DNA of 21,265 nucleotides from a virus, in the IMG/VR virus record IMGVR_UViG_3300025890_000188, positions 1-21,265 of that record, one strand, 5' to 3'. Positions 203-20,428 of the stretch are shown here, piece by piece. How positions within the stretch are numbered: position 1 is the stretch's first letter; each line of letters opens with the position of its first letter. The notes under the pieces are model-generated. The model searched no databases, was not told the origin of the DNA, and worked only from the letters and a program-made list of their open reading frames with translations. The translations under genes and the position numbers were made by a program.

Positions 203-2953
203 ATGGCTGACGGCTTAACCCCAGAACAAATATCAAGAGCGTTTCTTGATGCAATGCGAGAATACAATTCTGGCGGTAATTTACCTGGAGCAGGTGGTGC
301 TGGCGGCGGTAGATCGACTGGTCCTTCCGTAGGAACTCCAGCCGCTGATATGGGCGGCATAATCAAACAAGTCAAAGAATACACTGATAAAGTTAAAAAA
401 GGTAACGGTGCATTAGATTCGTATACCAGAATGATGCAACTTGCTGGTGGAAACTATGTTGATGTTTCACAACAATTATCTAGTTTAGATAAAGCTATTG
501 CTAAAGCCAAAGCTTCTGAAGATCTAAATACTCAAGCCACATTAGAAAATACAAGAGCAGAACTAGCACAAACAGCAGAAGTTAAAAACGTAAACGCTAT
601 GATGAAAACGTTTGCGGCAACTACTATAAAATCAATTGCCGCGGCCGCTCCAGCAGTTGGAAACTTTGTTAAAGGTTTACAAAGTGGTGCTAGTGCTAAC
701 GAACTATCATCAGGATTAATGACAGCTGGTGTTGATGTAGCCAATGGAGCCGCACAAGGACTAGCCGCAGGAATGAGTGGTGCTGGTAGTGCAATGGCAA
801 TGTTGCCTGGACCAGCGGGAATGGCAGGTAAAGCCATGGCAGTGCTTGGTCCGATTGTTGGTAACGTGGCAAGTGGTATGTCAAAACTTGCTAAAACTGG
901 TATTAGCATAATGCAAAAAGAAGTAGCACGTACCACTACCGTTTTTACTAATGCAAGTAGATCCGGAGCATTGTTTGCAGATGGTATGACAGGCATGAAA
1001 AATGCCGCTAAAGATGCAGGATTAACTACAGAACAATATAGCAAAGTATTACAAAGTAATAGTTCTGCACTTGCCGCCGCTGGTATGGGTGTAGCAGAAG
1101 GTAGTTTATTACTTGGTGCAACCCTGAAAAAGGGTGGCGGAGAAATGCGCCGAGAGCTATTGAACTTAGGTTATAATTTTGAAGAGCAAGGTGAACTAGT
1201 TGCTGAGACTATGGCAAACATGCGTCAAAGTGGTAAAGCACTTACACAAGGCGATACAGCCGCTATTGCAGACCAAACTCGAAAGTATGCCGAAAACCTT
1301 AGAATTGTTTCATCTATTACAGGTGAAGATGCTAAGAAGAAAATGGATCAAGTTAAAGCTGAAGCACAACAACTAGCCTTCCAACAACAACTTGCAGGTA
1401 TGGATGCAAAAGAGCGTGATAACATTATTCAGGCTATGTCAATGATGAGTGACCAACAACGCAAAAACTTCCAAGAAAGTTTGGTGTTTGGTCAAGTTAT
1501 TAACAAAGAAGGCGCCGCACTAGAATCAACCAGTTCATCTTATGCCGCTAGTACACAAGCGATGGTTGATGCGGCCAAAAATGGAACACTTGATGCCGCT
1601 AAAGCAAGAATAATTATTGCTGATTCAAGTGCAGGTATTAAGAAAGACCTACTAGCACAAAAAGAAATTGGCATGGCAGGTATGGCTGGTGTCTCCGGTC
1701 TTGCAGGAAGCCTTAACACGGCAATGGGCTTAGAGTTACAATATAGAAATAAATGGAATGCTGACGCTATGAAAAAAGCCGAAGACGCCGCAAAAGCTCA
1801 AAAGAAAACAGATGATGAAGTAACAACTACAGTAGTTGACAATATGAAGATCGCACAAGATCTTGCAGTAAAAACTGAAGCTGAATTATCTAAATTATTA
1901 CCACTGTTTACAGACTTCCAAAACAAAACACTTTCAATGACCAAACAATTAGTTGATGCAGTGTCAGGTGCCGCTCAAGATTCAAAAGGCAAGAATGAAG
2001 ACGGCAGTGACAAAGACTGGGTTGAAAAACAAATGAACAAAGTTGGTCTTTCAAAACAATCAGATGAAAATGCAGGTGTTGGCGGAGCTCTTAAAGGTGC
2101 CGCTACTGGTGCAATGACTGGTGCAATGGTAGGATCACTTGTTCCTGTTGTTGGTACTGCAATAGGCGCCGCAGTTGGTGGTATTATTGGAGGAGCATTA
2201 GGTTGGTTCTCCAAAGGTAGTTCTGATGGTGGTATTGTTACTGGTGCTAACGAAGGCTTCTTACACAAGTTACACGGAACTGAATTGATTGTGCCACTAG
2301 ACAACGGCAAACCCAGAGAAAGTTCTAAAGGTTACGAACATGCAATGAATATATTTGGTAAAGGCAGTAGCACAGTAGAAGAAGCTGTTGGAGCCGCTGG
2401 CAAGGTTGCTAAAAGTGCATGGGGTTGGGCTAAAAAAACATTGTTTGGCGGCGGAGACGAAGAAGAGGGTGCCGCTTCAGGTGAAAAACAAGGAGGCGCA
2501 TTATCAGCGTTAGCTAAGTTACCTGGACCAATTGGAGCAGTTGCTGATGGTGTAAAAGCTATTGGAAGTTGGTTTGGTGGTGGCAAAAAAGACGCAGAAG
2601 CAACAGCATCAAACGAAAAAGAATCATCGAGTGGAGGTTTATTTGGTGCTCTTAAGAGTATTGTTGGAATTAGAGAGAAAGACGAACCTGGAGGTATACT
2701 AGACAGTATTGTAAGTAAAGTATCTTCGGTTGTAGCGGAAGTTAAAGAAGATGTTGTTGAAGCACTAGGTGGCGGAGATGAAGTTCGTGACCCGGATCGC
2801 CAGGCCGCAATGGCAGACGATAGCCCAATGAAAGCCGTATTAGACGAACAACTACAAGTATTATACCAATTACAAATGCATCTTGCAAATATTGATGGTA
2901 CTGGCAACGAAACAGTTGCCTACCAAAGAACATTGGTAGAGAATACTTGGTAA
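203..2953 (+). CDS. Tape-measure-like large virion protein
   Basis: This 916-residue protein is rich in Ala, Gly and Lys. Visible parts are an N-terminal Gly-rich linker (about residues 25-50), helical charged stretches, a hydrophobic Ala/Gly block (about 140-240), more helical sequence to about 610, and a glycine-zipper hydrophobic segment (627-668). Then comes SDGGIVTG followed by LHGTELIVPL (674-699), and finally two Gly-rich segments with LPGPxG motifs. The GGI...G...LHGTE.VPL motif is typical of the C-terminal part of phage tail tape-measure proteins. With the glycine zipper it supports a tail-length or DNA-injection role, with the hydrophobic segments possibly entering the host membrane. 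T4's own tape measure, gp29, is shorter and lies elsewhere, so the position next to the portal gene is unlike T4. An internal virion protein is the alternative. The start follows GGAAAAGATATATT, with a modest ribosome-binding site, and lies downstream of a late promoter. Confidence 0.6.
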   Translation: MADGLTPEQISRAFLDAMREYNSGGNLPGAGGAGGGRSTGPSVGTPAADMGGIIKQVKEYTDKVKKGNGALDSYTRMMQLAGGNYVDVSQQLSSLDKAIAKAKASEDLNTQATLENTRAELAQTAEVKNVNAMMKTFAATTIKSIAAAAPAVGNFVKGLQSGASANELSSGLMTAGVDVANGAAQGLAAGMSGAGSAMAMLPGPAGMAGKAMAVLGPIVGNVASGMSKLAKTGISIMQKEVARTTTVFTNASRSGALFADGMTGMKNAAKDAGLTTEQYSKVLQSNSSALAAAGMGVAEGSLLLGATLKKGGGEMRRELLNLGYNFEEQGELVAETMANMRQSGKALTQGDTAAIADQTRKYAENLRIVSSITGEDAKKKMDQVKAEAQQLAFQQQLAGMDAKERDNIIQAMSMMSDQQRKNFQESLVFGQVINKEGAALESTSSSYAASTQAMVDAAKNGTLDAAKARIIIADSSAGIKKDLLAQKEIGMAGMAGVSGLAGSLNTAMGLELQYRNKWNADAMKKAEDAAKAQKKTDDEVTTTVVDNMKIAQDLAVKTEAELSKLLPLFTDFQNKTLSMTKQLVDAVSGAAQDSKGKNEDGSDKDWVEKQMNKVGLSKQSDENAGVGGALKGAATGAMTGAMVGSLVPVVGTAIGAAVGGIIGGALGWFSKGSSDGGIVTGANEGFLHKLHGTELIVPLDNGKPRESSKGYEHAMNIFGKGSSTVEEAVGAAGKVAKSAWGWAKKTLFGGGDEEEGAASGEKQGGALSALAKLPGPIGAVADGVKAIGSWFGGGKKDAEATASNEKESSSGGLFGALKSIVGIREKDEPGGILDSIVSKVSSVVAEVKEDVVEALGGGDEVRDPDRQAAMADDSPMKAVLDEQLQVLYQLQMHLANIDGTGNETVAYQRTLVENTW

Positions 2954-2957
2954 AAAA

Positions 2958-2965
2958 ACTAAATA
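2958..2965 (+). promoter_or_regulatory. Possible degenerate late promoter before the portal gene
   Basis: ACTAAATA matches six of eight positions of TATAAATA and sits 30 bases before the portal start, within the 42-base gap after the preceding gene. It is a weak candidate in an AT-rich gap. The portal gene could equally be read through from the promoter at 126. Confidence 0.3.
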
Positions 2966-2995
2966 TACACATATAATAAACTAGGTAGTAACAGA

Positions 2996-4729
2996 ATGAG
3001 TTGGAAAAAATATTTTAAAGCATCGAGTGTTCCAGGAGCAATGTCTGGAAACGTAAGCCCTATTTCAGGCTCGAGAAGTCAACCAGCTGATTCAGCATAC
3101 AGAAACTACCAAAGTAATTTACCAGAAATTTATGTAGGCCATCCAAACCGTATTGATCGTTATAACCAATATGAACAAATGGACCTTGACAGTGAAGTTA
3201 ATGCCGCATTAGATATTATTTCGGAATTTTGCACACAGAAAAATGAATCAAACAATACACCATTTGACTTTCACTTTAACGATAAACCAACAGACAACGA
3301 AGTTACTATTATTAACGAACAGTTGTTACAATGGGTAAACTTAAACGATCTTAATAAAAGAATGTTTAAAATTATTCGTAATACTATTAAGTATGGAGAT
3401 CAAGTATTTTTACGTGATCCAGAAACATTCAAATTATATTGGTCTGAAATGGCCAACGTTACAAAAATTATTGTTAACGAAGCTGAAGGTAAAGAACCTG
3501 AGCAGTATATTCTTAAAGATTTAAATCCTAACTTTGAAAACTTAACAGCTACAGCAGTTCATTCAAGTGATGCATACGTTAATACTCCAAACGTTGGATC
3601 TGGAAATCAAAGTAGTAGTACTGCTTATATGCAAAATACAAATGCAGGAGTTTCCGGCGGGCGGTTTAGTGCAAGCCAAAGCGAAAGTGTAATTGATGCA
3701 GAACACGTTGTTCACCTAAGTTTAACAGAAGGGCTTGATATGTTTTGGCCTTTTGGTAACAGTGTTCTTGAAACAGTGTTTAAAGTTTTCAAACAAAAAG
3801 AATTACTTGAAGATGCTATTATTATTTACAGAGTGCAACGAGCACCAGAGCGTAGAATTTTCAAAATTGATGTAGGTAATATGCCTACACACATGGCAAT
3901 GGCTTTTGTTGAACGTGTTAAAAACGAAATACACCAGCGTAGAATTCCAACTCAATCTGGTGGCGGTGTTAATATGATGGATGCTACATATAATCCATTA
4001 AGCACAAACGAAGATTTCTTTTTTCCAACTACAGCAGACGGCCGCGGTTCAAACGTTGAAACATTACCAGGCGGAACTAATTTAGGAGAAATAACAGATT
4101 TAAGATTCTTCTCAAATAAATTGTTCCGTGGATTACGTATTCCGAGTAGTTACTTGCCAACTGGCATGGACGACGGAACACAAAGTTATACAGACGGGCG
4201 TGTTGGTACAGCGTTAATTCAAGAATGGAGATTCAATCAATATTGTAAAAGATTACAAGCAATGATTGTTGATAAACTTAACACCGAGTTTAAAATGTTC
4301 TTGCGTTGGAGAGGTTTTAATATTGACAATCAACTGTTTGATTTAATATTTGAAGAACCACAAAACTTTGCTCAGTATAGACAAGCAGACATTGATAGTG
4401 CTCGTATTGCAACGTTTACACAATTAGAGGCTTTTCCTTATATGAGTAAGCGTTTTTTAATGCAACGTTACTTAGGTATGAGCGAAGCTGAATTAGCTGA
4501 AAATGAAATAATGTGGAATGAAGAGCAAGGCAAAGCAGATACATCAATGACAGGAGATCCGAGTTTACGTAATGTTGGTATTACTCCTGGTGGTATTGAA
4601 GGAGATTTAACTGATACTGAAGTCCCAGATGAAGAAGGTGGCGAAGAAGGTGCAGTTGATGATGCAGGAGCCGCTGAGACACCAGTTCCAGATGCTCCAA
4701 CAGTAGATGCCGCTGGAAATCCTCTATAA
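2996..4729 (+). CDS. 20: Portal vertex protein (gp20)
   Basis: This 577-residue protein is recognised as the T4-family head portal from its order in the head cluster and from family-typical stretches. These include YVGHPNRIDRYNQYEQMDLDSEVNAALDIISEF near the N-terminus, RVQRAPERRIFKIDVGN, and the later regions SSYLPTGMDDGTQSYTDGRVG and FKMFLRWRGF. Twelve copies would form the ring at the packaging vertex that starts prohead assembly, holds the terminase and later joins the neck. It is somewhat longer than T4 gp20 (524 residues). The extra length includes a Ser/Asn/Gly-rich insert around residues 180-230 and a C-terminal acidic tail rich in Glu, Asp, Ala and Pro. The start at MSWKKYFK has only a weak AGGT upstream. 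No broken motif was seen. Confidence 0.93.
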   Translation: MSWKKYFKASSVPGAMSGNVSPISGSRSQPADSAYRNYQSNLPEIYVGHPNRIDRYNQYEQMDLDSEVNAALDIISEFCTQKNESNNTPFDFHFNDKPTDNEVTIINEQLLQWVNLNDLNKRMFKIIRNTIKYGDQVFLRDPETFKLYWSEMANVTKIIVNEAEGKEPEQYILKDLNPNFENLTATAVHSSDAYVNTPNVGSGNQSSSTAYMQNTNAGVSGGRFSASQSESVIDAEHVVHLSLTEGLDMFWPFGNSVLETVFKVFKQKELLEDAIIIYRVQRAPERRIFKIDVGNMPTHMAMAFVERVKNEIHQRRIPTQSGGGVNMMDATYNPLSTNEDFFFPTTADGRGSNVETLPGGTNLGEITDLRFFSNKLFRGLRIPSSYLPTGMDDGTQSYTDGRVGTALIQEWRFNQYCKRLQAMIVDKLNTEFKMFLRWRGFNIDNQLFDLIFEEPQNFAQYRQADIDSARIATFTQLEAFPYMSKRFLMQRYLGMSEAELAENEIMWNEEQGKADTSMTGDPSLRNVGITPGGIEGDLTDTEVPDEEGGEEGAVDDAGAAETPVPDAPTVDAAGNPL

Positions 4730-4742
4730 GGTAAATAGTTTT

Positions 4743-4976
4743 ATGTTATTAACTGAATTCTTTAAATCAGCGGATACACCGCACTATGTTGAAAAAGACG
4801 ATGAAAGCATTATTCGTACAAATGATACACGAAAAGTTCGCTTGACTCTGTTACATCTAAATCGTTTGCGTAGTGCAAATGATGTGCGTAAGTACGAAGA
4901 TGAACAAAAAACTCAATCTTTAAAGGATCAATATGCTAAACCAGCAGATGACGAGGCTGGTGGATTAGACGTATAA
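4743..4976 (+). CDS. Small conserved head-cluster protein, possible prohead core component
   Basis: I choose the ATG at 4743 (77 residues, MLLTEFFKSAD...) rather than the in-frame ATG at 4707, which lies inside the end of the portal gene and would add 12 unlikely residues. The protein is hydrophilic: a central basic helix (VRLTLLHLNRLRSANDVRKY) followed by an acidic tail ending in GGLDV. It starts 13 bases after the portal stop and ends just before a terminator, so it is the last gene of the portal transcript. T4 has small prohead core proteins (gp67, gp68) in this interval, which makes a core role plausible. I see no sequence signature that proves it. Confidence 0.75.
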   Translation: MLLTEFFKSADTPHYVEKDDESIIRTNDTRKVRLTLLHLNRLRSANDVRKYEDEQKTQSLKDQYAKPADDEAGGLDV

Positions 4977-5010
4977 CATATCCTCCAACTTAAGAACATT
5001 TTGTCTATAA

Positions 5011-5050
5011 AAAAGCAGTAATCCATAAAATTACTGCTTTTTTTTCTTTT
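5011..5050 (+). terminator. Strong intrinsic terminator after the portal operon
   Basis: A perfect 12-bp stem (5011-5022 paired with 5030-5041) with a 7-base loop runs directly into a T-rich tract (5038-5050 with one C). This is a textbook Rho-independent terminator. The A-rich 5' side also gives a weaker T tract on the other strand. It separates the portal transcript from the core-protease-scaffold-capsid transcript. Confidence 0.9.
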
Positions 5051-5103
5051 TGACTCAAAAACACCGTAAAAGTACCTGTATTATATATAAAGTATGCAGT
5101 TAT

Positions 5104-5111
5104 AGTAAATA
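5104..5111 (+). promoter_or_regulatory. Possible late promoter for the prohead core-protease-scaffold-capsid operon
   Basis: A promoter is expected here because a strong terminator lies just upstream and four head genes follow. AGTAAATA at 5104-5111 keeps TAAATA of the late consensus, with two mismatches at its first two positions. TATATAAA at 5084-5091 is another weak candidate. Neither is an exact consensus, so the precise site is uncertain. Confidence 0.35.
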
Positions 5112-5162
5112 CATTACAAAGGTATTATATGCAAAGCCTTAATTATCACGAGAGGAGTTCCT

Positions 5163-6011
5163 ATGAACAAGTACGAAAAGTTAATCGATCTTATCATTAG
5201 CGAAGACGAAGAAAAAGCAAAAGGTCTTTTTCACGAGATTGTTGTAGAGAAAAGTAAAACAATCTATGAGTCATTAATGGATGATGAAATCGCAGAAGAG
5301 ATTACAGATGACAAAGTTGGTGATCTTGCACAGGACGTTGAAGCCGATGAAGAAGGTGTAAACGAAGAAGACGATGAAATGGAAATGGAATTAGATGCTG
5401 AAGCTGGCGATGACGGCGAAATGGGCATTGATGACATGGATATTGATGACGGTGCTGAAGAAGGTGGCGACGAAGCGCCAGCTACTAAAGGCGACGTAAT
5501 GGATCTAGAAAGTGCAATTGATGAACTCAGAGTTGAGTTTGACAAAATCATGGACACAGTAGACGCAGATGGCGATGGCGACCACGATATGGAAGACCAT
5601 GAAGACGCTGGTGAAGAAGCTGAAGTTGATGATGAAGAAACAGAAGAGAGTGTACAATTTGAATCTGCTGATGAAGAAGCTGAAGACGACGAAGAAGTTG
5701 CTGAAGCTGAAGAAGTAGATGAAGCTGAAGAAGTCATTGAAGAAGACGACGGACAAGAAGATTTAGACAGACTACGCGAATATGTTGAAAAAGTTGCCGG
5801 TGTTCCAAACACAGGCGGCGCAGACAACAATAGTTCTGTTGTAGCTGGCAAAAACGACATGGGCGGCGAAGCTGGAAACATTGCACAAGGTGGCGATGAA
5901 AAAGGCGGCAAAGTTGCATCACCTAAAGTTGATTCCGATGGTAATGTAAACGTTCCTGGTGGTAAAGCAAGTAAGTTGGCACCGGCTCCTAAGCCTAAGT
6001 CAGCAGAATAA
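5163..6011 (+). CDS. Very acidic prohead core protein (gp67-like) with an EF-hand-like loop
   Basis: This 282-residue protein starts with a short helical segment (MNKYEKLIDLIISEDEEKAK, about residues 1-40) that resembles the start of T4 gp67 in pattern. A long Asp/Glu-rich region (about 40-205) follows, then a Gly/Asn/Lys-rich tail ending in APKPKSAE. T4 gp67 is a small, acidic prohead core protein that gp21 cuts into internal peptides, and it sits in the same place between portal and protease. This protein is over three times longer, so the match is by position, N-terminus and composition only. Residues 134-145 read DADGDGDHDMED, which fits the spacing of a calcium-binding EF-hand loop. The start has a strong AGGAG at 5153-5157, five bases upstream. 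The gene lies 12 bases before the protease gene. Confidence 0.6.
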   Translation: MNKYEKLIDLIISEDEEKAKGLFHEIVVEKSKTIYESLMDDEIAEEITDDKVGDLAQDVEADEEGVNEEDDEMEMELDAEAGDDGEMGIDDMDIDDGAEEGGDEAPATKGDVMDLESAIDELRVEFDKIMDTVDADGDGDHDMEDHEDAGEEAEVDDEETEESVQFESADEEAEDDEEVAEAEEVDEAEEVIEEDDGQEDLDRLREYVEKVAGVPNTGGADNNSSVVAGKNDMGGEAGNIAQGGDEKGGKVASPKVDSDGNVNVPGGKASKLAPAPKPKSAE

Positions 6012-6023
6012 TAGGGCTTAATA

Positions 6024-6659
6024 ATGGCTTTGTATCTTAGAGAAACTCTTACTTCTAACCAAGCTCAACTCGTAACGGAATCTGAGGACGGCAAGGACGG
6101 AAGTAAGAATCTTTATATGAAAGGTATTTTCATTGAGGGTGGTGTTAAGAATGCCAACCAACGTGTATATCCTGTTAACGAAATCGAAAAAGCCGTAACA
6201 GCTATTACTGAACAAATCAAAAGTGGATACAGTGTTCTAGGTGAAGTAGATCACCCAGATGATTTGAAAATAAACTTAGACCGAGTTTCGCACATGATCA
6301 CAGATATGTGGATGGACGGACCGTGCGGTTATGGAAAACTAAAAGTCTTACCAACACCAATGGGTAAGATGGTTCAGAGTATGTCTGATGCAGGTGTTAT
6401 GCTAGGTGTTAGCTCACGTGGATCAGGAGACGTAAATGAGGCGTCAGGACATGTCAGCAATTTTGATATTATTACTGTTGACATTGTAGCACAACCCAGT
6501 GCTCCACATGCATATCCTAAAGCAATCTATGAAAGTTTGCTTAATATGACTGGTGGCCATAAAGCTCTTGGGATAGCAGAAGAAGCTGTCCACGATCAAA
6601 GAGTACAAAAGTACTTGAAAGAGACGGTAACACGTCTAATCAAAGAACTGAAATTATAG
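6024..6659 (+). CDS. 21: Prohead maturation protease (gp21)
   Basis: This 211-residue protein is the T4-type prohead core serine protease. It digests the scaffold and trims capsid proteins after (Leu/Ile)-x-Glu sites before DNA packaging. Visible family features are NANQRVYP (about residues 43-50), the histidine motif GEVDHPDD with H77, the serine motif GVSSRG with S130/S131, and the following segment ITVDIVAQPSAPHAYP. The length matches the family (T4 gp21 is 212 residues). A C-terminal charged helix (about 190-211) may be removed on activation. It starts 12 bases after the core-protein stop, with AGGG upstream, and is followed 11 bases later by the scaffold gene, the usual order. Confidence 0.93.
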   Translation: MALYLRETLTSNQAQLVTESEDGKDGSKNLYMKGIFIEGGVKNANQRVYPVNEIEKAVTAITEQIKSGYSVLGEVDHPDDLKINLDRVSHMITDMWMDGPCGYGKLKVLPTPMGKMVQSMSDAGVMLGVSSRGSGDVNEASGHVSNFDIITVDIVAQPSAPHAYPKAIYESLLNMTGGHKALGIAEEAVHDQRVQKYLKETVTRLIKELKL

Positions 6660-6670
6660 GAGAAAAATCT

Positions 6671-7774
6671 ATGTTTGATGCTTTAAAACCATTGTTAGAA
6701 AGTGGCATCGTAAATGAAGAAACTCGTGTAGCGATTGCAGAAGCTTGGGAAACTAAGTTATCTGAGGCTCGTGAAGAAATTCGTGCAGAAATGCGTGATG
6801 AGTTTTCTCAGAAGTTTGACCACGATAAAGGCGTAATGGTAGAAGCTCTAGACAAGATGGTAACCGAAAATTTAACAACAGAAATTGAAGAATTCCAAGC
6901 TGAGAAAAAGCAACTAGCAGAAGACCGTGCAAAGTTTAATGTACGTATGGTTGAAGCCAGTGAAAAGTTTGATAAGTTCATGGTCACTAAGTTGGCTGAA
7001 GAAATTAAAGAACTACGTAATGATCGCAAAACATACGAGAATAGCATTGCTAAACTTGAAAAGTTTGTTGTCAAATCTCTTGCAGAAGAAATCCAAGAAT
7101 TCGAACAAGACAAAAAAGCAGTTGTTGAGACTAAAGTACGTCTAGTAGCCGAAGCCAAAGGAAAAATGGCAGAGCTAAAAGAAGGCTTTATTAAGAAATC
7201 ATCAGCTCTTGTTAAAGAAGCAGTTACTTCAAAGCTAGAGTCGGAATTGGCTCAACTTAAAGAAGACATTACAATCGCCAGAGAAAATATGTTTGGAAGA
7301 AAAATTTATGAAGCAGTTGCAAGTGAATTTGCTGTTACTCATTTAAATGAGAACAAAGAAATCGCTAAATTGCATCAGAAAATTAAAGACTCTGAAGATA
7401 AACTTGCCGAAGCTACTAAGGCAATTGACGACGCTAATGTAATCGTTGAGACAAAATCCAAAGAGATCCGTATTATTAAAGAATCACAAGAGCGTAAGGA
7501 AACCCTTGCTTCTCTATTGAAACCTTTGAATAAGGAAAAAGCCACAGTTATGCGTGAGCTTCTCGAGTCAGTTGAGACAACTAAGTTACAATCTCAATTT
7601 GACAAATATCTATCAGCAGTATTAGGTGGTACTAATTCAACTAAGACAAAAAAAGTCGTAGTAGAATCCACTGAAGCTACTGGAAATAAGAAATCTGTAA
7701 GTCCTTCTGTAGAAGCTGATGATAGTCAAGATGCTACTGTCATTGAGTTGAAGAAACTTGCAGGGCTTAGATAA
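6671..7774 (+). CDS. 22: Prohead scaffold protein (gp22)
   Basis: This 367-residue protein is almost entirely charged and helical. From about residue 25 to 290 it is a continuous run of Glu/Lys/Ala/Leu with heptad-like spacing, which predicts long coiled coils. The opening MFDALKPLLESGIV and the position between protease and capsid identify it as the T4 gp22 main scaffold, which fills the prohead and is later degraded by gp21. Many (Leu/Ile)-x-Glu triplets are present, as expected of a gp21 substrate. The length is larger than T4 gp22 (269 residues). AGGAG lies about eight bases before the ATG. No cysteine was noted. Confidence 0.88.
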   Translation: MFDALKPLLESGIVNEETRVAIAEAWETKLSEAREEIRAEMRDEFSQKFDHDKGVMVEALDKMVTENLTTEIEEFQAEKKQLAEDRAKFNVRMVEASEKFDKFMVTKLAEEIKELRNDRKTYENSIAKLEKFVVKSLAEEIQEFEQDKKAVVETKVRLVAEAKGKMAELKEGFIKKSSALVKEAVTSKLESELAQLKEDITIARENMFGRKIYEAVASEFAVTHLNENKEIAKLHQKIKDSEDKLAEATKAIDDANVIVETKSKEIRIIKESQERKETLASLLKPLNKEKATVMRELLESVETTKLQSQFDKYLSAVLGGTNSTKTKKVVVESTEATGNKKSVSPSVEADDSQDATVIELKKLAGLR

Positions 7775-7801
7775 TAATATACCCATAGGAGATAAGGTAA
7801 A

Positions 7802-8974: not shown

Positions 8975-8998
8975 GTCTTACTTAGAAGAATACCATTT

Positions 8999-9026
8999 AG
9001 AAAGGTCCTTCGGGGCCTTTCTTTTT
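8999..9026 (+). terminator. UUCG-tetraloop terminator after the capsid gene
   Basis: A 10-bp stem (8999-9008 with 9013-9022, one G-U pair) closed by a C(UUCG)G tetraloop is followed by TTTTT. This is a very stable intrinsic terminator, and it ends the capsid transcript. A late promoter begins only three bases after its T tract. Confidence 0.93.
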
Positions 9027-9029
9027 GAC

Positions 9030-9037
9030 TATAAATA
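9030..9037 (+). promoter_or_regulatory. T4-type late promoter for the appendage module
   Basis: An exact TATAAATA directly follows the capsid terminator, restarting transcription for the next gene. The expected start of transcription is near 9043, which coincides with an in-frame ATG. Confidence 0.85.
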
Positions 9038-9067
9038 TTGCTATGTTATTAGATAGTAAATATTTTG

Positions 9068-9072
9068 AAGGA
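9068..9072 (+). promoter_or_regulatory. Ribosome-binding site that decides the start of the 100-residue gene
   Basis: AAGGA at 9068-9072 is six bases before the ATG at 9079. The alternative in-frame starts at 9025 (TTG) and 9043 (ATG) lie upstream of, or on, the predicted transcription start and have no ribosome-binding site. Confidence 0.75.
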
Positions 9073-9078
9073 ACTGAT

Positions 9079-9381: not shown

Positions 9382-9392
9382 CTTTATCTACG

Positions 9393-9400
9393 CATAAATA
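9393..9400 (+). promoter_or_regulatory. T4-type late promoter
   Basis: CATAAATA differs from the late consensus only at the first base and lies 31 bases before the gene at 9432. It would drive the run of closely spaced structural genes from 9432 to 15888. Confidence 0.75.
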
Positions 9401-13700: not shown

Positions 13701-14131
13701 TTGGTCCAGACTTAGTTACTGGAAGAACTGGAGCTCAGTATTTTACTTTTGCTTTCAGAAGAACTAACTTAGCAAACTTTGATATTAATATTACAACATC
13801 AACTGGAATAGCAGGTTTATGGCTAGCCGCTCCTGGAACAGGAATTGATGCCTCAGCAAGTTCAACCAACGGTTGGATTGATGGTACTGCTAGTTATGCA
13901 GGTGCTGGACTTCCTGGTACTGATACTAGTGCAGGAGGTAACGGTGACACCGGGTGTGCATTGACGTCAACTGATAGAGTACCAGTAAATACTGCAATTA
14001 CAAATACATCATATACTATGACATTAGGTAGCGAAAACTTATCTAATGCCACAGGCAAAAACTGTTTAATTAGAGTAAGACTTGACAACGGGCAATCACT
14101 AAGTTCAATTAGTATTGAGGCGGCGGCATAA
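10751..14131 (+). CDS. 1126-residue appendage protein with four PKD-like domains
   Basis: The N-terminus (MALGRISGAML...LERDGSDLAFETDLLYLDVANNRIGI, ending in LDV near residue 50) is a common head of marine phage fibre proteins. It is followed by a beta-rich linker. Four PKD-type immunoglobulin-like domains show the W-x-(F/Y)-GDG signature or a close variant: W197DFGDG, W296GDG (one residue pair shorter), W400TYGDG and W522DFGDG. The first and fourth keep the full consensus. The C-terminal half (about 590-1126) is Ser/Thr/Asn/Gly-rich beta sequence without a recognised domain. PKD domains bind surfaces or polysaccharides in secreted proteins, so host attachment is likely but inferred. AAGGAG overlaps the stop of the gene before. 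Its stop overlaps the next start by one base (TAATG). Confidence 0.8.
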   Translation: MALGRISGAMLQGNLERDGSDLAFETDLLYLDVANNRIGIKNTTPAHNLDVATSGKIGNIVLNGSAISATGQLDFGAPADITLSGGSNGYVLSTDGSGNLSFTSLSSIIGASGTDGMSIVLGTPTDTSLVTEAAWDGWLTTTKVTDAIDNLNQVALNIAKETYVGQADFTESTSAGPSPLTVNFTSAYTGTADTFFWDFGDGNSSTQENPSHTYVNNLGGQFTVEFRASNSSGTFSGVPASGAIGSYDDVTKTNLITLYTPNPIPAFTITDDSIDSGSSAEITNSSQYTTSFDLDWGDGTQENPANGWTTETHVYSNPSGDTQYAIQLDATSTTAGPSPVTVTGTPQNIQVFDTHTPTFTANTVVLANEESAGGGIVTFTNTTATNPGSTSTFNANRYRWTYGDGDIDTINIQGGVAGNPGSTIQHLFSLSSSNQTNGVSETFDVKLEVINEHTTSPFASGLTSIKIEPDVRSNFSGSADRQSDRIGDNAQDIYLHNDYRDNFDRAAVTFTSTAEHADDYLWDFGDGTNSGTINEGDPGTTTGGTLAKTYASSTVGNKTVTLTVNGTPDTLAQSDVDTKTNYIQINSNPPAPASLSSRTLSLSTSGQPHQGFDVRLASGATDNSGGNIPSAGSSVTRYVSGLTNVNTNSVTDVNTDLTGTLTAKVNNVAAGTVTFNITTDQSATFTDLVLTDDRDAHDSVSSSTYPTGFFRAFDANISTSFAGLSTGYSDFQLTHDTGGDTNNVGFLKDDLSSNPTLDINSAVVTQTAPGTLKHISGIPYYNNSSNTISVAGIEVSNWIGQAYRNGSNFFFEDSTNDESTTDSIINTQSKSYSDIDGASTMLSSGTPIAGTGQGSAYALGNITFSINRSARAVAQVQAKIRNVNGDSNTVIFPTKFNVYSSSLTGFDEEDIDVPSTLGGTFSDNGKRVALGLTGDNPSYTAADFFTNNPFTGAITVAGTDEAIVRWGTLKHYDDDNFSTGYLPVGPDLVTGRTGAQYFTFAFRRTNLANFDINITTSTGIAGLWLAAPGTGIDASASSTNGWIDGTASYAGAGLPGTDTSAGGNGDTGCALTSTDRVPVNTAITNTSYTMTLGSENLSNATGKNCLIRVRLDNGQSLSSISIEAAA

Positions 14132-15888
14132 TGGCTATTTCAGATACCCAAAAAGTTGATTACCTGTTTAAGAAGTTAGGGTATGGTGTTACTAAAACAG
14201 ATACACTCGCTTTTAAACGAGCCTTCAATGAAAGTATAAGTTCGCCGCTATTATTACGTGGCGATAAAGTATGGCAAGAAGCAGATGTAATACCAGCAGT
14301 TAAACCGTCGTCGAGTAGTTCACAAGTAACAATATATGACGATAGTGGCAATGGTTTAGCTACTGTTGAATGCACAGAAGATATTACAGCAAGTGACAAT
14401 AGAACTTGGAAAACAGGTTTAACTGATTGGATACCAACTGAATTTGGTGCAACATATCTTGTTAAAGTTTATATTTCTACCACCGCAGATGCAACTCCTC
14501 AAAGCAACGGAACTCAAATTCTTTCAGCAGGTAGTGGCAATGATGATGAATGGTTCTTTGATTACCAATCAGGTGTAGTACACTTCATTGGTGAAAACTT
14601 ACCAACAGACATTGCGTCTGGAGTTACAGGAAAGAGTATCTTTGTAGTTGGTGCTAGGTATACTGGCAACTTTGGTGTAGGTGCAGGTGCCGGAGGCGGT
14701 GCTGTTGGCGATTTAAGTATATCCGGAACTACGATTAGTACAAACAGCGGAACTAATAATGATATTATACTTGACCCAGATGGAACAGGAGCAGTTTTAA
14801 TCAGTGGTGCTGAAATTGAAAATCTAGCAGACCCAACTGATGCACAGGATGCCGCTACTAAAAATTATGTAGACACTCAACTAACTAGTGGATTATCAGG
14901 ATTATCCGCTGATAAAATATTTGATGGTAACACAGAAGCCGTTGCTGATGATACTATTGGCGCAGAAAAAATTTCGTTTACAATTAACGGAACACAAGTT
15001 GGCGAAGTAGTTGGCACAGGACTTAGTATTGATCAAATTAATCCGTATACCAGTGCAACAGGAAGAATAACATTTAATACAGTATCAGCTTTTACTATAC
15101 CTGCAGGAACAACAGCCCAAAGACCTGCTACAGGTGTTACAGGAGATCTTAGGTATAATACAACCGATGGTGGCTTAGAGTTTTGGAATGGTTCAATATG
15201 GACCAAACCAGGTGCAAGTGCTACATCGTCGGAAACGATAACCCCAGACGGTACTAGTGCAACTTATGCTCTAAATGAACTTGCAACAGTTGATAGTATT
15301 ATTGTTACACTAAATGGTGTTGTACAGCATACAAACGCATATACAGTTGCTACTAATTCTAATGTTTCTTCAATTACTTTCAGCCAAGTTCCACAGGCAA
15401 CAGATGAAGTTAATGTTAGATATCTAACACTTGACATAGCATTTGAAAACAAATATAGAAGCAACATATCAGCTGATCCTACTTCAAGTACAGCAGGTGA
15501 GGCTGGAGATTATTGGATCAATAATAAAGGTCAGTTTTTTATATACGAAGCAACAGGTTGGCATGTAGTAAGTACAGATCCAATAACTACTGTTTCTGTT
15601 GCATCAGCATCGCCACCAACTAGTATTTTTACATTCGCTTTAGCAGACTATCGTAGTGCAGAGTTTTTAGTTCAAAGTGTGAACGGTACTGATTATCAAA
15701 TTAATAGATTGCTATTGATACATGATGATACTACAGCATCTATTAATAATACTTTATTAACTGCTGATGGAACAAGTGAATTTGTAACATTATCTGCTAC
15801 TATCACTGGCTCAAATGTTTTGTTACAAGCAACAACTACAAGCGGAACAAGTACAATAACCGTCAGATCAACTTTAATTCCAGCGTAA
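14131..15888 (+). CDS. 585-residue fibre/structural protein with shared C-terminal module
   Basis: The N-terminal 185 residues (MAISDTQKVDYLFKKLGYGVTKTDT... LLLRGDKVWQ... NDEWFFDYQSGVVHFIGENLP... GKSIFVVGARYTG) form a domain known from marine T4-like phage virion proteins. A Gly hinge (GAGAGGG) follows, then NLADPTDAQDAATKNYVD (231-249), a common fibre motif. Next are DLRYN...LEFWNGSIW (339-356), the GVxQ domain (NGVVQ at 395-399) and a final module from about 490 to 585 (FALADYRSAEFLVQ...NGTDYQ). The last three also occur in the same order at the end of the long fibre. It is probably a tail or baseplate appendage. Its start overlaps the preceding stop (TAATG), which implies translational coupling. 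Confidence 0.82.
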   Translation: MAISDTQKVDYLFKKLGYGVTKTDTLAFKRAFNESISSPLLLRGDKVWQEADVIPAVKPSSSSSQVTIYDDSGNGLATVECTEDITASDNRTWKTGLTDWIPTEFGATYLVKVYISTTADATPQSNGTQILSAGSGNDDEWFFDYQSGVVHFIGENLPTDIASGVTGKSIFVVGARYTGNFGVGAGAGGGAVGDLSISGTTISTNSGTNNDIILDPDGTGAVLISGAEIENLADPTDAQDAATKNYVDTQLTSGLSGLSADKIFDGNTEAVADDTIGAEKISFTINGTQVGEVVGTGLSIDQINPYTSATGRITFNTVSAFTIPAGTTAQRPATGVTGDLRYNTTDGGLEFWNGSIWTKPGASATSSETITPDGTSATYALNELATVDSIIVTLNGVVQHTNAYTVATNSNVSSITFSQVPQATDEVNVRYLTLDIAFENKYRSNISADPTSSTAGEAGDYWINNKGQFFIYEATGWHVVSTDPITTVSVASASPPTSIFTFALADYRSAEFLVQSVNGTDYQINRLLLIHDDTTASINNTLLTADGTSEFVTLSATITGSNVLLQATTTSGTSTITVRSTLIPA

Positions 15889-15910
15889 ATTAGTTCTTTT
15901 TATTCAGTGG

Positions 15911-15918
15911 ACTAAATA
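15911..15918 (+). promoter_or_regulatory. Possible degenerate late promoter before the long fibre
   Basis: ACTAAATA occurs 23 bases after the stop of the 585-residue gene. It is identical in its eight bases to the candidate before the portal gene. It is far (over 160 bases) from the long-fibre start, so its role is doubtful. Confidence 0.25.
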
Positions 15919-16024
15919 ACATTATACGAAAGAGTCTGTTCAAGACCGTTCCATAAAACCCCCAAAAAATTTGCCAGTTAAAAAACATGCTCGCAAACCA
16001 TTTTCTCATGACTATGGTAAATAG

Positions 16025-16033
16025 TGTTATAAT
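16025..16033 (+). promoter_or_regulatory. Extended -10 promoter candidate for the long fibre
   Basis: TGTTATAAT at 16025-16033 matches the extended -10 element (TGnTATAAT) used by bacterial sigma-70 RNA polymerase. No good -35 box is visible at the usual distance, as is common for extended -10 promoters. A late-like GTAAATA lies just before it (16017-16023). Transcription would start near 16040. Confidence 0.45.
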
Positions 16034-16039
16034 TTGATA

Positions 16040-16055
16040 AAGTCACCAATGACTT
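16040..16055 (+). other. Short inverted repeat at the predicted 5' end of the long-fibre message
   Basis: AAGTCA, a CCAA loop and TGACTT form a perfect 6-bp stem. It lies right at the predicted transcription start of the 16025 promoter and 26 bases before the ATG. It may protect the 5' end of the message or act as an operator. It could also be chance. Confidence 0.35.
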
Positions 16056-16081
16056 AAGGATAACACAGGAGCATATTAAAA

Positions 16082-19000
16082 ATGGCGATAACACGTATTT
16101 TAAACAATCAAATTACCGATAGTACCATTACTGCGGCGAAGATTGCAAACGCTACTTTAACAGGTGGATTGTTTGCGGCAGACTTGACGCTTAACAGTAA
16201 CGTTACTATTTCGGGTAACTTGGTTGTTTCAGGAACAGAAAGTACAGTATCTAGTACTAATACTTTTGTTAACGATCCTCTGATCGTTTTCAATAATGGA
16301 TATACAGGAACACCAACTTACGATATTGGTATTCTAGCTAATAGAAATCTACAAAATTTAGATGGAAATAACGTTAACGCCGCTTTGGTATGGGTTGAAG
16401 CAGACGATAAGTTTGAAGCAATCGCAACTACTGAAACTGGAGGTACAGCAGGGGCAATTAACAGAACAGCATTCGTTGATTTCCAAGCAAAAGAAATTGC
16501 TGGTACTACTATTACAGCAAGTACAAATTTTGCTGGTGCTTTAACTGGTAACGTAACAGGCGATGTAACAGGTGACTTAACTGGTGATAGTGCAGGAACA
16601 CATACAGGTGCAGTAACAGGTAACGTAACTGGCGATGTTACTGGAGACTTAACTGGTGATAGTGCAGGAACACATACAGGTGCAGTAACAGGTAACGTAA
16701 CTGGCGATGTAACTGGTGATTTAACAGGCGCCTCAACTGGTGCTCATAATGGTACAGTTGGAGCAACCACTCCAGCAACTGGTGCATTTACAACAATCAG
16801 TGCTAGTGGAACAATCACTGGTGATGTAACTGGTGACTTAACCGGCAATGTAACCGGCAATGTAACTGGCGATGTTACTGGTGACTTAACTGGTGATGTA
16901 ACCGGCAATGTAACTGGTAACTTAACTGGAGCCTCAACTGGTGCTCACAATGGTACAGTTGGTGCAACCACTCCTGCTACAATCGTAGGTACAACCATCG
17001 GCGGTACTGTTATTACAGCAAGTACAAACTTTGCAGGTGATATTACTGGTGATGTAACTGGTAACGTAACAGGTAACTTAACAGGTGATGTAACTGGTGA
17101 TGTAACTGGTGATGTTACAAGTGCAGGAACAAGTACTTTTGCTACAGTTGATGTGAATGGCGGTGCTATTGACGGAACTACTATTGGAGCAACTTCAGCT
17201 TCAACTGGTGCATTTACAACATTAACATCAAGTGGTGGATTTACAGGTGATGTAACTGGTGATGTAACTGGTGACTTAACCGGTGATGTTACAAGTGCAG
17301 GAACAAGTACTTTTGCTACAGTTGATGTGAATGGCGGTGCCATTGATGGTGCAATTATTGGTGCTAACTCAGCCGCGGCAGGTACGTTCACAACAATTAA
17401 TGCAAGTGGTGCAATCACAGGTGATTTAACTGGTGATGTTACAGGTAACGCTGATACAGCAACAGCTCTAGCAACAGGTAGAACTATTGCAATCACTGGC
17501 GATGCAACATATACATCAGGATCATTTGATGGAACAGGCAATGTAACCGGCGCACTTACCTTAGCAAACAGCGGAGTAACAGCCGCAACAGTTGGATCTG
17601 GAACAGAAATTCCAGTTATTACTGTTGATGCAAAAGGACGTATTACATCAACTTCAACAGCCACAGTAACAGCCGGCGTATTGGCTATGGCAGGTGACTC
17701 GGGCACTGACAACGTAACAGTTGGTACTGATACACTAACCTTTGCTGGTACAACAAACGAAGTTGTAACTACAGTAACAAACAACCAAGTACAAATTGGT
17801 TTACCAGACAACGTAACAGTTGGCGGAAACTTAACAATTAGCGGTGACTTAACAGTTGATGGTACAACTACAACAGTTAACACAACCAACATTGAAGTTG
17901 AAGATCCATTGATGTTCTTAGCAACTGGTAACGGTGGCGCTGACTTAGTGGACATTGGTTTCTACGGACTATATGACACAAGTGGCTCACAAGACTTATA
18001 CGCAGGACTATTTAGAGATGCTGGAGATGGCAAATTTAAATTGTTCAAAGATACACAAGACGTTCCAACTACAACAGTGGATACAAGTGGTACTGGTTAT
18101 GCAGTCGCATCACTGGTAGCAAACTTAGAAGGTGCTAGTGACGGTGCTCATAACGGTACAGTTGGAGCAACAACTCCAGCAACTGGTGCATTTACAACAA
18201 TCAGTGCTAGTGGAACAATCACTGGTGATGTAACTGGTGACTTAACTGGTAATGCAGATACAGCTACAGCATTAGCTACTGGTAGAACTATTGCAATTAC
18301 AGGAGATGGAACTTATACATCGGGATCATTTGATGGAACAGGTAACGTAACTGGTGCTTTAACACTAGCAAACAGCGGAGTAACAGCAGGCTCATATGGT
18401 GATGCCGCCAACGCCGTAGCAGTGACAGTTGATGCAAAAGGACGTATTACAGCGATCTCAGAAAACGCTATTGCCGCAGTATTTAATGTCACAGGTGACT
18501 CAGGTAGTAAAGCTATAGCATTAGCAACTGAAACTATTGACTTTGAAGGTGGTACAGGTGTAACAACCGCTGTTGATAATGCAAATGATAAGATTTCGTT
18601 TGCAATTGGTCAGGCAGTTGGAACAACTGACAACGTAACATTTGGAACAATTGGCGGTACTGTTATTACAGCAAGTACAAACTTTGTAGGTGATATAACT
18701 GGTGACTTAACTGGTGGTGCAACAATTGGTGCAGGTAAAACATTAGATGTCGACGGTGTTGTTGATATTGATGCTAGTTCAGGAAACATGGATGGTGTTA
18801 ATATTGGTGGAACTACACCAGGAACAGCCGCATTTACTACAGCATCAGCAAGTGGTGGATTTACAGGTGACTTAACTGGTACAGCAGACGTAGCAACAGC
18901 AGTAACATTGATTGCTAGTAACACCACAGACTCCGCACACTACATCAACTTTACAGACTCTGCAACAGGTAATGAAAACATCAGAACTGACACTGGATTA

Positions 19001-20428
19001 ACATACAATCCAAGTAGTGGAATTTTAACAACCACTCAAGTAACTGGCAACTTAACTGGTGACGTAACTGGTAATGCAGATACAGCCACAGCATGGGCAT
19101 CAGCTCGTACTATTTCACTAGGTGGTGACTTGTCAGGTAGTGTAAGCATTGACGGTAGTTCAAACGTAACACTAAACGCAACTATTGCCGCAGATAGTAT
19201 TGCACTAGGTACAGATACTACTGGAGCCTATGTCCAAAGTATTACAAACGGATCGTACATCACAGGTGGTGACGGTGGTAGCGAAAGCGCCGCTCTAACA
19301 CTAGCAGTTGATGCAACTGATCAAAATACAGCAAGTAAAGTTGTTGCACGTGATGGCAGTGGTGACTTTGCCGCAGGCACAATCACAGCAACTTTAACTG
19401 GTAACGTAACTGGTAACATTACTTCATCTGGTACAAGTGCATTTGCTACTGCAACATTTAGCGGAGACTTAACTGGCAACAGTGCAGGTACCGCAGGTAA
19501 TGATGTAACTTGGTCAGGTGATACAAAAGCTGGACTATTTAGAGTAGTTGCAAGTGCAACATACGACACAGTCATTATTGGCGGTGATGGTACTTCAGGA
19601 GACTTAACAACAGGTGCTACTCTTAATATTGTTGGTACAGACAGTGTTAGAATTCCGTCAGGAACAACAGGACAACGTCCAGTTTCTGGTGCACAAGGCA
19701 TGATGCGTTATAATACAACTTCAGGTAACACTGAAATTTATAGCGGAAGTGAATGGAAAAACTTAGCAACTGACTTCACAGTTATTACACACGATAGCTT
19801 TAACGGTGACGCCAGTACTGTAGCATTTACACTAAGTGAATCGTCAACTACAGCAGGTTGTATGGTTAGCATCAACGGTGTTATCCAGATTCCAACTTCA
19901 GCATACAGCATTAGTGGTACAACATTAACATTTACTGAGGCACCAGCTTCAGGTGATGTTATTGATGCTAGAATTATCACAACTACTAGTACTATTGAAG
20001 GACTAAGTTCTGGTAATACTTACATGAAGATTGATGCTACAAATACCAGCATTGATGTTTACACTGGAACAAACTCAGGAACTATTACTAGTTACTGGGA
20101 TAGAGATGGTGCATATGTTGAGAATAAGACTGCTATTAGCGTTGGCACAAGTGCAACTGATATTGCAACGTTTGCGTTGGCAACATACCGCTCAGCTAAG
20201 TTTATTGTACAAAGTACAAATGGAACTGATTATCAAGTAGACGAAGTGCTTGTTATACACGACGGAACTACAGCAACAATGACATCATATGCTCAAACAG
20301 TTGCTGATGGAACTACAGCGTTTATGACACTAACAGCAGACATTGATAGTGGAAGCGTTAGACTAAGAGGAACAGGTGGCAGTGGAACTTCAACCGTAAG
20401 AGTTGCAAAACACTACATCGCAGTATAA
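16082..20428 (+). CDS. 1448-residue repeat-rich tail fibre
   Basis: This is the largest gene of the window. In order: an N-terminal helix-turn segment (MAITRILNNQITDSTITAAKIA); a GNLVVSG module (about 40-115); a region from about 155 to 460 dominated by GNVTG/GDVTG/GDLTG repeats broken by SAGTSTFATVDVNGG and GAHNGTVGATTPAT blocks; GRTIAITGD...TVDAKGRIT; a second GNLTISG module (about 575-665); a second GRTIAITGD...TVDAKGRIT block; more GDLTG repeats; MMRYN...EIYSGSEW (1207-1222); a GVxQ domain (NGVIQ, 1265-1269); and a C-terminal module (1364-1448). The repeats suggest a trimeric beta-structured shaft and the end modules a base or tip. This is a host-recognition fibre by inference. AGGAG lies ten bases before the ATG. 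It is preceded by its own promoter candidate and followed by a strong hairpin. Confidence 0.85.
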   Translation: MAITRILNNQITDSTITAAKIANATLTGGLFAADLTLNSNVTISGNLVVSGTESTVSSTNTFVNDPLIVFNNGYTGTPTYDIGILANRNLQNLDGNNVNAALVWVEADDKFEAIATTETGGTAGAINRTAFVDFQAKEIAGTTITASTNFAGALTGNVTGDVTGDLTGDSAGTHTGAVTGNVTGDVTGDLTGDSAGTHTGAVTGNVTGDVTGDLTGASTGAHNGTVGATTPATGAFTTISASGTITGDVTGDLTGNVTGNVTGDVTGDLTGDVTGNVTGNLTGASTGAHNGTVGATTPATIVGTTIGGTVITASTNFAGDITGDVTGNVTGNLTGDVTGDVTGDVTSAGTSTFATVDVNGGAIDGTTIGATSASTGAFTTLTSSGGFTGDVTGDVTGDLTGDVTSAGTSTFATVDVNGGAIDGAIIGANSAAAGTFTTINASGAITGDLTGDVTGNADTATALATGRTIAITGDATYTSGSFDGTGNVTGALTLANSGVTAATVGSGTEIPVITVDAKGRITSTSTATVTAGVLAMAGDSGTDNVTVGTDTLTFAGTTNEVVTTVTNNQVQIGLPDNVTVGGNLTISGDLTVDGTTTTVNTTNIEVEDPLMFLATGNGGADLVDIGFYGLYDTSGSQDLYAGLFRDAGDGKFKLFKDTQDVPTTTVDTSGTGYAVASLVANLEGASDGAHNGTVGATTPATGAFTTISASGTITGDVTGDLTGNADTATALATGRTIAITGDGTYTSGSFDGTGNVTGALTLANSGVTAGSYGDAANAVAVTVDAKGRITAISENAIAAVFNVTGDSGSKAIALATETIDFEGGTGVTTAVDNANDKISFAIGQAVGTTDNVTFGTIGGTVITASTNFVGDITGDLTGGATIGAGKTLDVDGVVDIDASSGNMDGVNIGGTTPGTAAFTTASASGGFTGDLTGTADVATAVTLIASNTTDSAHYINFTDSATGNENIRTDTGLTYNPSSGILTTTQVTGNLTGDVTGNADTATAWASARTISLGGDLSGSVSIDGSSNVTLNATIAADSIALGTDTTGAYVQSITNGSYITGGDGGSESAALTLAVDATDQNTASKVVARDGSGDFAAGTITATLTGNVTGNITSSGTSAFATATFSGDLTGNSAGTAGNDVTWSGDTKAGLFRVVASATYDTVIIGGDGTSGDLTTGATLNIVGTDSVRIPSGTTGQRPVSGAQGMMRYNTTSGNTEIYSGSEWKNLATDFTVITHDSFNGDASTVAFTLSESSTTAGCMVSINGVIQIPTSAYSISGTTLTFTEAPASGDVIDARIITTTSTIEGLSSGNTYMKIDATNTSIDVYTGTNSGTITSYWDRDGAYVENKTAISVGTSATDIATFALATYRSAKFIVQSTNGTDYQVDEVLVIHDGTTATMTSYAQTVADGTTAFMTLTADIDSGSVRLRGTGGSGTSTVRVAKHYIAV
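16547..16730 (+). repeat. 72-bp tandem repeat inside the long fibre
   Basis: Two full 72-base units (16547-16618 and 16619-16690) and a partial third (to about 16730) encode GNVTGDVTGDLTGDSAGTHT followed by GAVT. The protein units are identical, while the DNA units differ at several third codon positions (for example GTAACA versus GTAACT). The unit is a multiple of three, so changes in copy number keep the reading frame. Confidence 0.9.
16771..18246 (+). repeat. Dispersed 72-bp identical direct repeat in the long fibre
   Basis: The 72 bases at 16771-16842 are identical to those at 18175-18246, encoding the PATGAFTTISASGTITGDVT region. The offset is 1404 bases, a multiple of three, so recombination between the copies would remove 468 codons in frame. 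The coordinates given span both copies and the DNA between. Confidence 0.85.
17108..17340 (+). repeat. 59-bp identical direct repeat pair in the long fibre
   Basis: Positions 17108-17166 and 17282-17340 are identical over 59 bases, encoding GDVTSAGTSTFATVDVNGG. The offset is 174 bases, again in frame. Unlike the 72-bp tandem units, these copies have no synonymous differences, which suggests a recent duplication or conversion. Confidence 0.88.

Follow-up and report, generated by a model that had tools for sequence, protein, structure and literature searches.

Why should a viral DNA hold one copy of a five-base word where dozens are expected? The question arises from the IMG/VR virus record IMGVR_UViG_3300025890_000188, analyzed here as a stretch of 21,265 bases (hereafter the window), in which an original prediction made by eye had found a single GCAGC (20667-20671), no GCTGC, some 45 copies of GCCGC and some 20 of GCGGC. 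The full count agrees with these figures to within one or two (GCAGC, 1, at 20667; GCTGC, 0; GCCGC, 46; GCGGC, 20), and the effect is bigger than had been claimed: GCWGC occurs once against 36.3 times expected under a maximal-order Markov model, the lowest z among all 5-mers, and once against 47.4 when codons are shuffled within the 15 window genes (1,000 trials, trial minimum 38), with genes taken as mechanical open frames. The near-absence of GCWGC is real and extends beyond the window across the phage species. Window positions 1-16779 are 99.8% identical to contig G001 (89,459 bases), which has no GCWGC against 100.4 expected, and G001 is 99.99% identical across a 44-kb overlap to contig G042 (228,348 bases), which has none against 222.8 expected (maximal-order Markov); the window is linked to G042 only via G001. 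Over the 277,845 non-redundant bases of the species, one GCWGC stands against 349 expected from a trinucleotide model, and parts of 11 to 21 kb from each of three more contigs of the species contain none. In the window, G001 and G042 alike, this palindromic word has an observed/expected ratio below 0.1 at an expectation above 15, which places it among eliminated Type II sites; the threshold of 0.1 is the one given in the available text of Rusinov et al. 2018 (PMC6286503).

We suggest that two coupled defenses against Type II restriction have probably been at work in this jumbo-phage lineage, such that modification of the DNA would shield some sites and the unshielded ones would have been purged. 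The focal contig, G042, lacks GCWGC and about ten other palindromes wherever no 5'-GA or 5'-GG step, on either strand, lies in or beside the site; with such a step, most of those other words are retained.

It must be asked whether a DNA word or a codon habit is being avoided. As originally predicted, alanine codons mostly are GCA or GCT (571 of 700 in the window genes) and adjacent pairs begin otherwise, all 57 Ala-Ala pairs starting with GCC (44) or GCG (13). An effect on codon pairs or on translation at GCA-GCN and GCT-GCN, which the same prediction had offered as an alternative, would suit the first coding phase, where the expected sites are mostly Ala-Ala. However, codon shuffling of G001 together with the window tail predicts 99.6, 9.5 and 7.0 sites in the three phases, where 0, 1 and 0 are found, so that the other two phases have 1 of 16.5; in the 221-kb contig G002, from a relative, the phases stand at 0.21, 0.21 and 0.08 of expectation, the other two having 14 of 96. 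Depletion in all three phases points to avoidance of a DNA word rather than a codon-pair habit and rules the latter out for the focal phage and G002, and it is further contradicted by G026 and phage PA5oct, which use GCA and GCT freely in Ala-Ala; its chance of being right is negligible. The loss is strand-symmetric and independent of reading phase, as in Type II site elimination, and the one-base neighbors of GCWGC are not depleted. We give equally little credence to mutation bias, such as would follow if methylated cytosines in GCWGC were deaminated. Although its products GTWGC and GCWAC exceed the codon-shuffle expectation in G001 plus the window tail (443 versus 386), the chief replacements are GCC and GCG (GCSGC, 158 versus 47), and judged by these replacement words such deamination was set aside as unlikely; moreover, the methylase families PF00145 and PF01555 were found in none of 40 records, and PF01555 in none of ten further searched, nine of them new.

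The same loss recurs in other palindromes. Sites were counted as protected when GA, GG, TC or CC lies inside them or at their edges, and a motif as eliminated when observed/expected fell below 0.15, motifs with an expectation below 8 being left out. HGCGCD, RCGCGY and RCAATTGY have been erased, and the same words beside 5'-GA or 5'-GG are mostly kept. For instance, observed/expected counts in G042 are 0/95 for GCGC without and 61/96 with a G flank, and 0/28 for unprotected and 106/88 for protected CAATTG; the corresponding pairs are 0/46 and 15/40 for GCGC in G061, 0/23 and 21/24 for GCATGC in G054, and 1/88 and 371/384 for CGCG in G025. Altogether, G042 has eliminated 13 of 55 unprotected motifs, two of them nested in GCGC, versus one of 86 protected motifs, GCWGC itself; the figures are 14/59 versus 0/94 in G054 and 10/56 versus 3/97 in G025. 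The original inference of selection by host restriction was thus right in kind and too narrow: selection on a palindromic DNA word holds, given that all phases are depleted and one-base neighbors are not, but its restriction to one word does not survive the loss of 13 motifs. Under a trinucleotide Markov model, nine unprotected words of G042 stand at zero against 11 to 176 expected, and of the eight protected counterparts six range from 0.8 to 1.5 times expectation (7 to 51 sites). In a pool of 15 phages, 97 of 738 motifs were eliminated in unprotected form and 15 of 1,146 in protected form, and among 462 comparable motif-genome pairs the unprotected class alone was lost in 63, the protected class alone in 2 and both in 9; ten of the 15 phages are individually significant (p < 0.05). 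PA5oct was kept outside this pool as a control, and G064, G065, G068 and G069 also stand outside it. Since AGCGCT and TGCGCA contain GCGC, and ACGCGT and GCGCGC contain CGCG, the independent words are fewer than the motif counts. In the window, all six CGCG sites are of the protected kind (GCGC and CAATTG are given in the table).

Which flank protects depends on how the motif begins: G for A- or G-first motifs, T or C for C-first motifs, and none for T-first motifs. Among cells with an expectation of 4 or more, to which the first-base table and the logistic model were limited, those that are empty make up 84/298 of the C-first cells with purines on both flanks versus 15/758, 70/434 of the G-first cells without a G flank versus 15/280, and 51/1125 versus 13/634 of the A-first cells, with 13/1290 for T-first motifs and 37/4213 for motifs with an internal G-purine step or a central S. 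This dependence on the first base fits a modified G before a purine on either strand and not a flank preference of the enzymes. Restriction enzymes with flank preferences do exist, and each host enzyme might happen to dislike a flanking G, that is, read a longer word such as HGCWGCD or RCGCGY. However, a single dinucleotide rule on either strand fits 95 motif-genome combinations (chosen by unprotected loss), giving H..D around G- and A-first and R..Y around C-first motifs, and the same rule is visible in the unselected first-base table, which makes a coincidence of many such enzymes very improbable. Out of 55 candidate sets (10 strand-symmetric dinucleotides and 45 pairs), {GA, GG} performed best (66 versus 2; next set, 16 versus 1), and in the logistic model GG (-2.04) and GA (-1.25) have the strongest protective coefficients, followed by AT (-0.74). 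Second neighbors matter as well: for C-first motifs the values are 0.96 for GGC, 0.75 for GGT, 0.56 for GGA, 0.36 for GGG and about 0.58 for GA, and for G- and A-first motifs a G preceding the flanking G cancels protection (3/66 and 1/52). This analysis counted 95 of 97 motif-genome combinations, GCWGC of G042 and of G061 being omitted; as combinations had been selected as eliminated when unprotected, the effect at position -1 is partly circular, whereas the effects at -2, the first-base table and the 55-set test are not. The ranking, with GGC at the top, is in line with the GA and GGC contexts that the DpdA of phage CAjan is described as modifying in the available parts of PMC8306585 and PMC10002423; CAjan DNA without dpdA was sensitive to all enzymes tested, according to the accessible text of PMC6884629. 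DNA modification, another alternative raised at the outset, is probably part of the story, since the GA/GG-dependent loss makes it seem to decide which sites were lost.

GCWGC itself can be followed through 80 contigs kept from a portal search. Its avoidance among these relatives is graded and, judged by eye, turns up in six or more separate parts of the portal tree (with no formal count of changes). Pooled avoiders hold 21 HGCWGCD against 737.5 expected and 349 sites preceded by G on either strand against 425.9, and in non-avoiders the observed/expected ratios of the HGCWGCD and G-flanked classes are 1.05 and 1.16; the depleted pool comprised G002, G009, G010, G013 and 19 loci, the non-depleted pool G026 and loci above 0.85, and loci from 0.56 to 0.85 entered neither. 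It would be tempting to see here nothing beyond avoidance of a host restriction-modification system directed at GCWGC, with phage DNA modification playing no role. Such avoidance is known and common, 7.1% of Type II sites being eliminated in the tested phage-site pairs (PMC6286503, in the part available), and GCWGC is the lowest 5-mer in the window and in nine contigs (G001, G042, G061, G002, G009, G013, G010, G025 and G050). But this explanation does not account for sites beside GA or GG being mostly kept, nor for a flank rule that shifts with a motif's first base, nor for one rule across many palindromes that would need different enzymes, and we consider it unlikely, though with some chance of being correct.

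Candidate genes for a modification of the required kind are present. FolE, QueD and QueE were recognized in G002 (PHROGs), and homologues of all three occur in G042, G061, G025, G050, G054 and G059; QueD was detected in 22 of 40 records tried. For the focal species this evidence comes from the 228-kb contig G042, as the 21-kb window ends short of that region. G042 further encodes a conserved protein of 489 residues, a candidate DpdA, whose four motifs (table) we take to be those of TGT/DpdA proteins. The three best PDB fold matches of its predicted structure (pLDDT 65, pTM 0.74) are two tRNA-guanine transglycosylases and the preQ0 DNA insertase DpdA (7ui4); a sequence search of the candidate against solved structures gave no match. 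Its profile matched 15 of 30 records and one of nine in a second set, G065 and G068 being common to both sets. A DpdA-like homologue, 36% identical, is PQE65_gp168 of PA5oct (NC_071039.1, 222985-224607), annotated as hypothetical and lying 2.8 kb from an annotated QueE-like gene, PQE65_gp162. Presence of preQ0-type genes was tried and rejected as a discriminator between phages that have lost HGCWGCD only and those that have lost all GCWGC, because both kinds, and also the non-avoider G059, have FolE, QueD and QueE. G059 avoids other unprotected palindromes (8/56, versus 3/93 protected) and keeps GCWGC, as the model would have it for a phage whose hosts are without that enzyme.

Taken together, these data are consistent with a phage in whose DNA a 7-deazaguanine derivative takes the place of G in 5'-G-purine steps; the phage's FolE, QueD and QueE would make the derivative, and the DpdA-like transglycosylase would insert it. 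A site containing or touching the modified G would resist cleavage, and sites beyond its reach would have been lost to the selective pressure of restriction enzymes in past and present hosts, chiefly through synonymous replacement of GCA/GCT by GCC/GCG in Ala-Ala pairs. Shielded words would include GGCGC, CCGCG and CCAATTG, and unshielded ones AGCGCA, ACGCGT and ACAATTGT; because GCWGC can hold no G-purine step, it would be a perfect blind spot of the modification. In the avoiding relatives a modified flanking G seems to shield GCWGC; in the focal phage the G-flanked sites are gone as well (1 versus 29.6 expected; G042, 0 versus about 81), presumably because the enzyme encountered there still cuts when the modification lies outside its site. 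We also lean, with more reserve, toward the specific proposal that in this jumbo-phage clade a QueC-less deazaguanine pathway marks G in 5'-G-purine, and that the genomes may record, as a negative imprint, both the specificity of the modifying enzyme (GGC > GGT > GGA > GGG; GA) and the Type II enzymes met. A nuclease of the phage's own, directed at these words in unmodified host DNA, could likewise have selected them out of the phage, and G042 does encode an SNase, a PD-(D/E)XK protein and a weak GIY-YIG match, while avoidance at several places in the portal tree would agree with such an agent. Nevertheless, about ten unrelated palindromic specificities are too many for one nuclease, and the GIY-YIG gene near the portal was rejected as a self-selecting agent, being present in avoiders and non-avoiders; there is hardly any likelihood that this is the cause.

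Several points weigh against the combination of modification and purging. Its support consists of sequence statistics and gene homology. Taken individually, five of the 15 phages miss significance (p 0.06 to 0.39), and relatedness among the phages together with overlap among the motifs keeps the cells from being independent. Empty cells are scarce for AT-containing words as well (1.1% versus 4.9% in the single-factor table), and singly AT looks as protective as GA. A G flank rescues AAGCTT and GTGCAC only partly (in G042, GAAGCTT 2 of 17.7 and GGTGCAC 3 of 8.6), and GCWGC is absent from G042 and G061 even with a G flank, so that the complete disappearance of GGCWGC from the focal phage is explained only by further assuming an enzyme that ignores a modified base outside its site. 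G065 (335 kb), which has all four genes, eliminated 8/56 unprotected but also 4/91 protected motifs; AGATCT, which contains GA, stands at 2/69 there and is low too in G068 and G069, and its loss in G065 indicates that GA is no protection against every enzyme. As for the genes, the model of the DpdA candidate is of middling quality, with fold matches at TM 0.30-0.34 by query, and the Pfam TGT family PF01702 was found in none of 40 records at E 1, including the candidate-bearing G002 and G025. QueC (PF06508) was found in none of 30 records, so that the pathway may yield something other than preQ0; 7-carboxy-7-deazaguanine or another QueE product could be what is inserted, or else preQ0 supplied by the host, and some known phages are, in the descriptions available, also without parts of the pathway, MED16 having dpdA only. 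Over 50 kb, no pattern is seen in CAjan (5/47 unprotected versus 4/71 protected, at a cut-off of 0.2) or in PA5oct (1/40 versus 1/59), which has the DpdA homologue; restriction pressure may be weaker on these phages, or our explanation may be wrong. In RaK2 and Atu_ph07, with no match to the candidate, the pattern is absent (2/44 versus 3/65 and 0/36 versus 3/62). Contigs without a DpdA match, tried as natural negatives (G068, 1/47 versus 1/70; G064, 2/45 versus 0/65; G069, 0/43 versus 1/61), are fragments that are also without the neighboring genes, and because they are not true negatives they were rejected and not counted in favor of the hypothesis.

TseI-, ApeKI- and BbvI-type enzymes recognize GCWGC, the word that is also the target of GCWGC methyltransferases; the two DNA methylase families searched for in the phage records tested (PF00145 and PF01555) were not found. 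Methylation of GCWGC as m4C is known in freshwater Chloroflexi, as the accessible text of PMC6329791 has it. Rusinov et al. 2018 (PMC6286503) described the elimination of orthodox Type II palindromes from double-stranded DNA phage genomes; here, by contrast, the loss depends on the neighboring dinucleotide, involves many motifs at once and reaches 0 versus 223 in one 228-kb contig. In the available text of that study, coliphages that encode a hydroxymethylase and those that do not were compared as whole genomes, not site by site. The DpdA/7-deazaguanine systems of CAjan and 9g (Hutinet et al. 2019, PMC6884629, from the portion available) share with ours FolE, QueD, QueE, a TGT-like insertase (in our case a candidate) and similar protective contexts, whereas in our case QueC was not detected, the putative DpdA is distant and belongs to a T4-like jumbo phage, and the CAjan genome has no such pattern. 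Elimination of sites is thus known; the literature searched yielded no case in which it is confined to the blind spots of a base modification, and the accessible texts, including that of the BASEL collection (PMC8594841), do not link deazaguanine context with site avoidance. Nor do the available texts of the Paride (PMC10761892), Callisto (PMC11079468) and MIJ3 (PMC6892783) papers contain a statement on modified bases or restriction digests of the DNA of these phages. Avoidance and DNA modification are usually seen as alternative escapes, but here they look complementary at single sites. If this is true, genome statistics would suffice to read the sequence context of a modifying enzyme in uncultured phages, with no need for chemistry, and each phage would bear a fossil list of the restriction enzymes used by its hosts. 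Cultured relatives such as PA5oct, whose DpdA-like PQE65_gp168 would be worth naming, make a clean test possible.

The phage is a marine, PA5oct-like, T4-like jumbo myovirus, in that annotated PA5oct has homologues of its portal, protease, capsid and baseplate genes in matching order. Its portal is about 50% identical to those of the group of PA5oct, MIJ3, Paride and Callisto, but PA5oct, unlike the focal phage, does not avoid GCWGC (86 observed versus 70 expected in 50 kb) and follows no context rule. The gene directly upstream of the portal gene has no sequence match in PA5oct.

Features of the window and of contig G042, with the grounds for each
Feature	Position	Strand	Grounds
Structural, tape-measure-like gene	203..2953	+	Directly upstream of portal gene, position as structural genes in PA5oct and RaK2; Ala-Ala pairs use GCC/GCG
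Portal protein gene, T4 gp20 type	2996..4729	+	About 50% identity to PA5oct-like Pseudomonas phages
Head maturation protease gene	6024..6659	+	55% identity to annotated PA5oct gene
Major head protein gene	7802..8974	+	66% identity to PA5oct; in-frame GCCGC at 8369, 8504 and 8594 encodes Ala-Ala, GCC first
GCWGC-free stretch	203..20428	.	Count; the only GCWGC of the window falls at 20667
Lone GCAGC, context G.GCAGC.G	20667..20671	+	5' G is a flank tolerated by avoiding relatives
GCGC sites	1147..19290	.	Window count; 18/18 with 5' G or 3' C flank; HGCGCD absent (22 expected)
CAATTG sites	633..21056	.	Window count; 10/10 beside TC/CC or GA/GG; RCAATTGY absent (3.3 expected, weak alone; G042, 0 versus 37)
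DpdA candidate, conserved 489-aa protein	G042 161043-162512		Motifs DSGGFQ, LDIPT, NVLQG, FDCASP

Some losses are specific to single lineages: TTTAAA stands at 0/17 in G013, ACGT at 41/141 in G026 and GTWAC at 6/127 in G027 in any context, and TCGCGA, although it contains GA/TC, at 0/20 in G065, like AGATCT (2/69). In G042, TRAP-type-transporter-like genes (labeled by eye) lie at about 19.5-22 kb (L233-L234), and their binding protein is 49% identical to a protein of an Alphaproteobacteria metagenome-assembled genome (MAG); a host search with one transporter gene gave distant matches only, this being the best, and thus a weak hint of Alphaproteobacteria. Frame q54 of G042, taken by eye for a methylase, was rejected, as Pfam identifies it as DUF3050. 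Frames of G002 of at least 100 aa within one stretch number 207, a few giant structural ones being omitted, of which 140 plus 42 of the other 67 were scanned; among the Pfam matches listed (L089-L095) are Tad3 (a Thoeris inhibitor), sulfate permease, CsgG, CsgF, UvdE, ClpS, Clp protease, PhoH and Cu/Zn superoxide dismutase. G002 also has a phage tmRNA gene (L091:2697-3042, ARAGORN) with the tag ANENSYFEEFALAA, and three tRNA genes about 20 kb off in L092. Pieces of a tail-fiber-like gene at window positions 16607-17040 match G001 1-305 again at 83-89%, and the translation shows repeats of the GDVTGDLTG type. The late region of G001 (62238-70397 and elsewhere) encodes many related radical-SAM-like proteins, by homology to G002 frames, and a carbamoyltransferase. 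Finally, giant structural genes occupy G001 37151-50392 (4,413 aa) and G002 172830-186989 (4,719 aa), and PA5oct has a virion gene of 11.6 kb at the same place.

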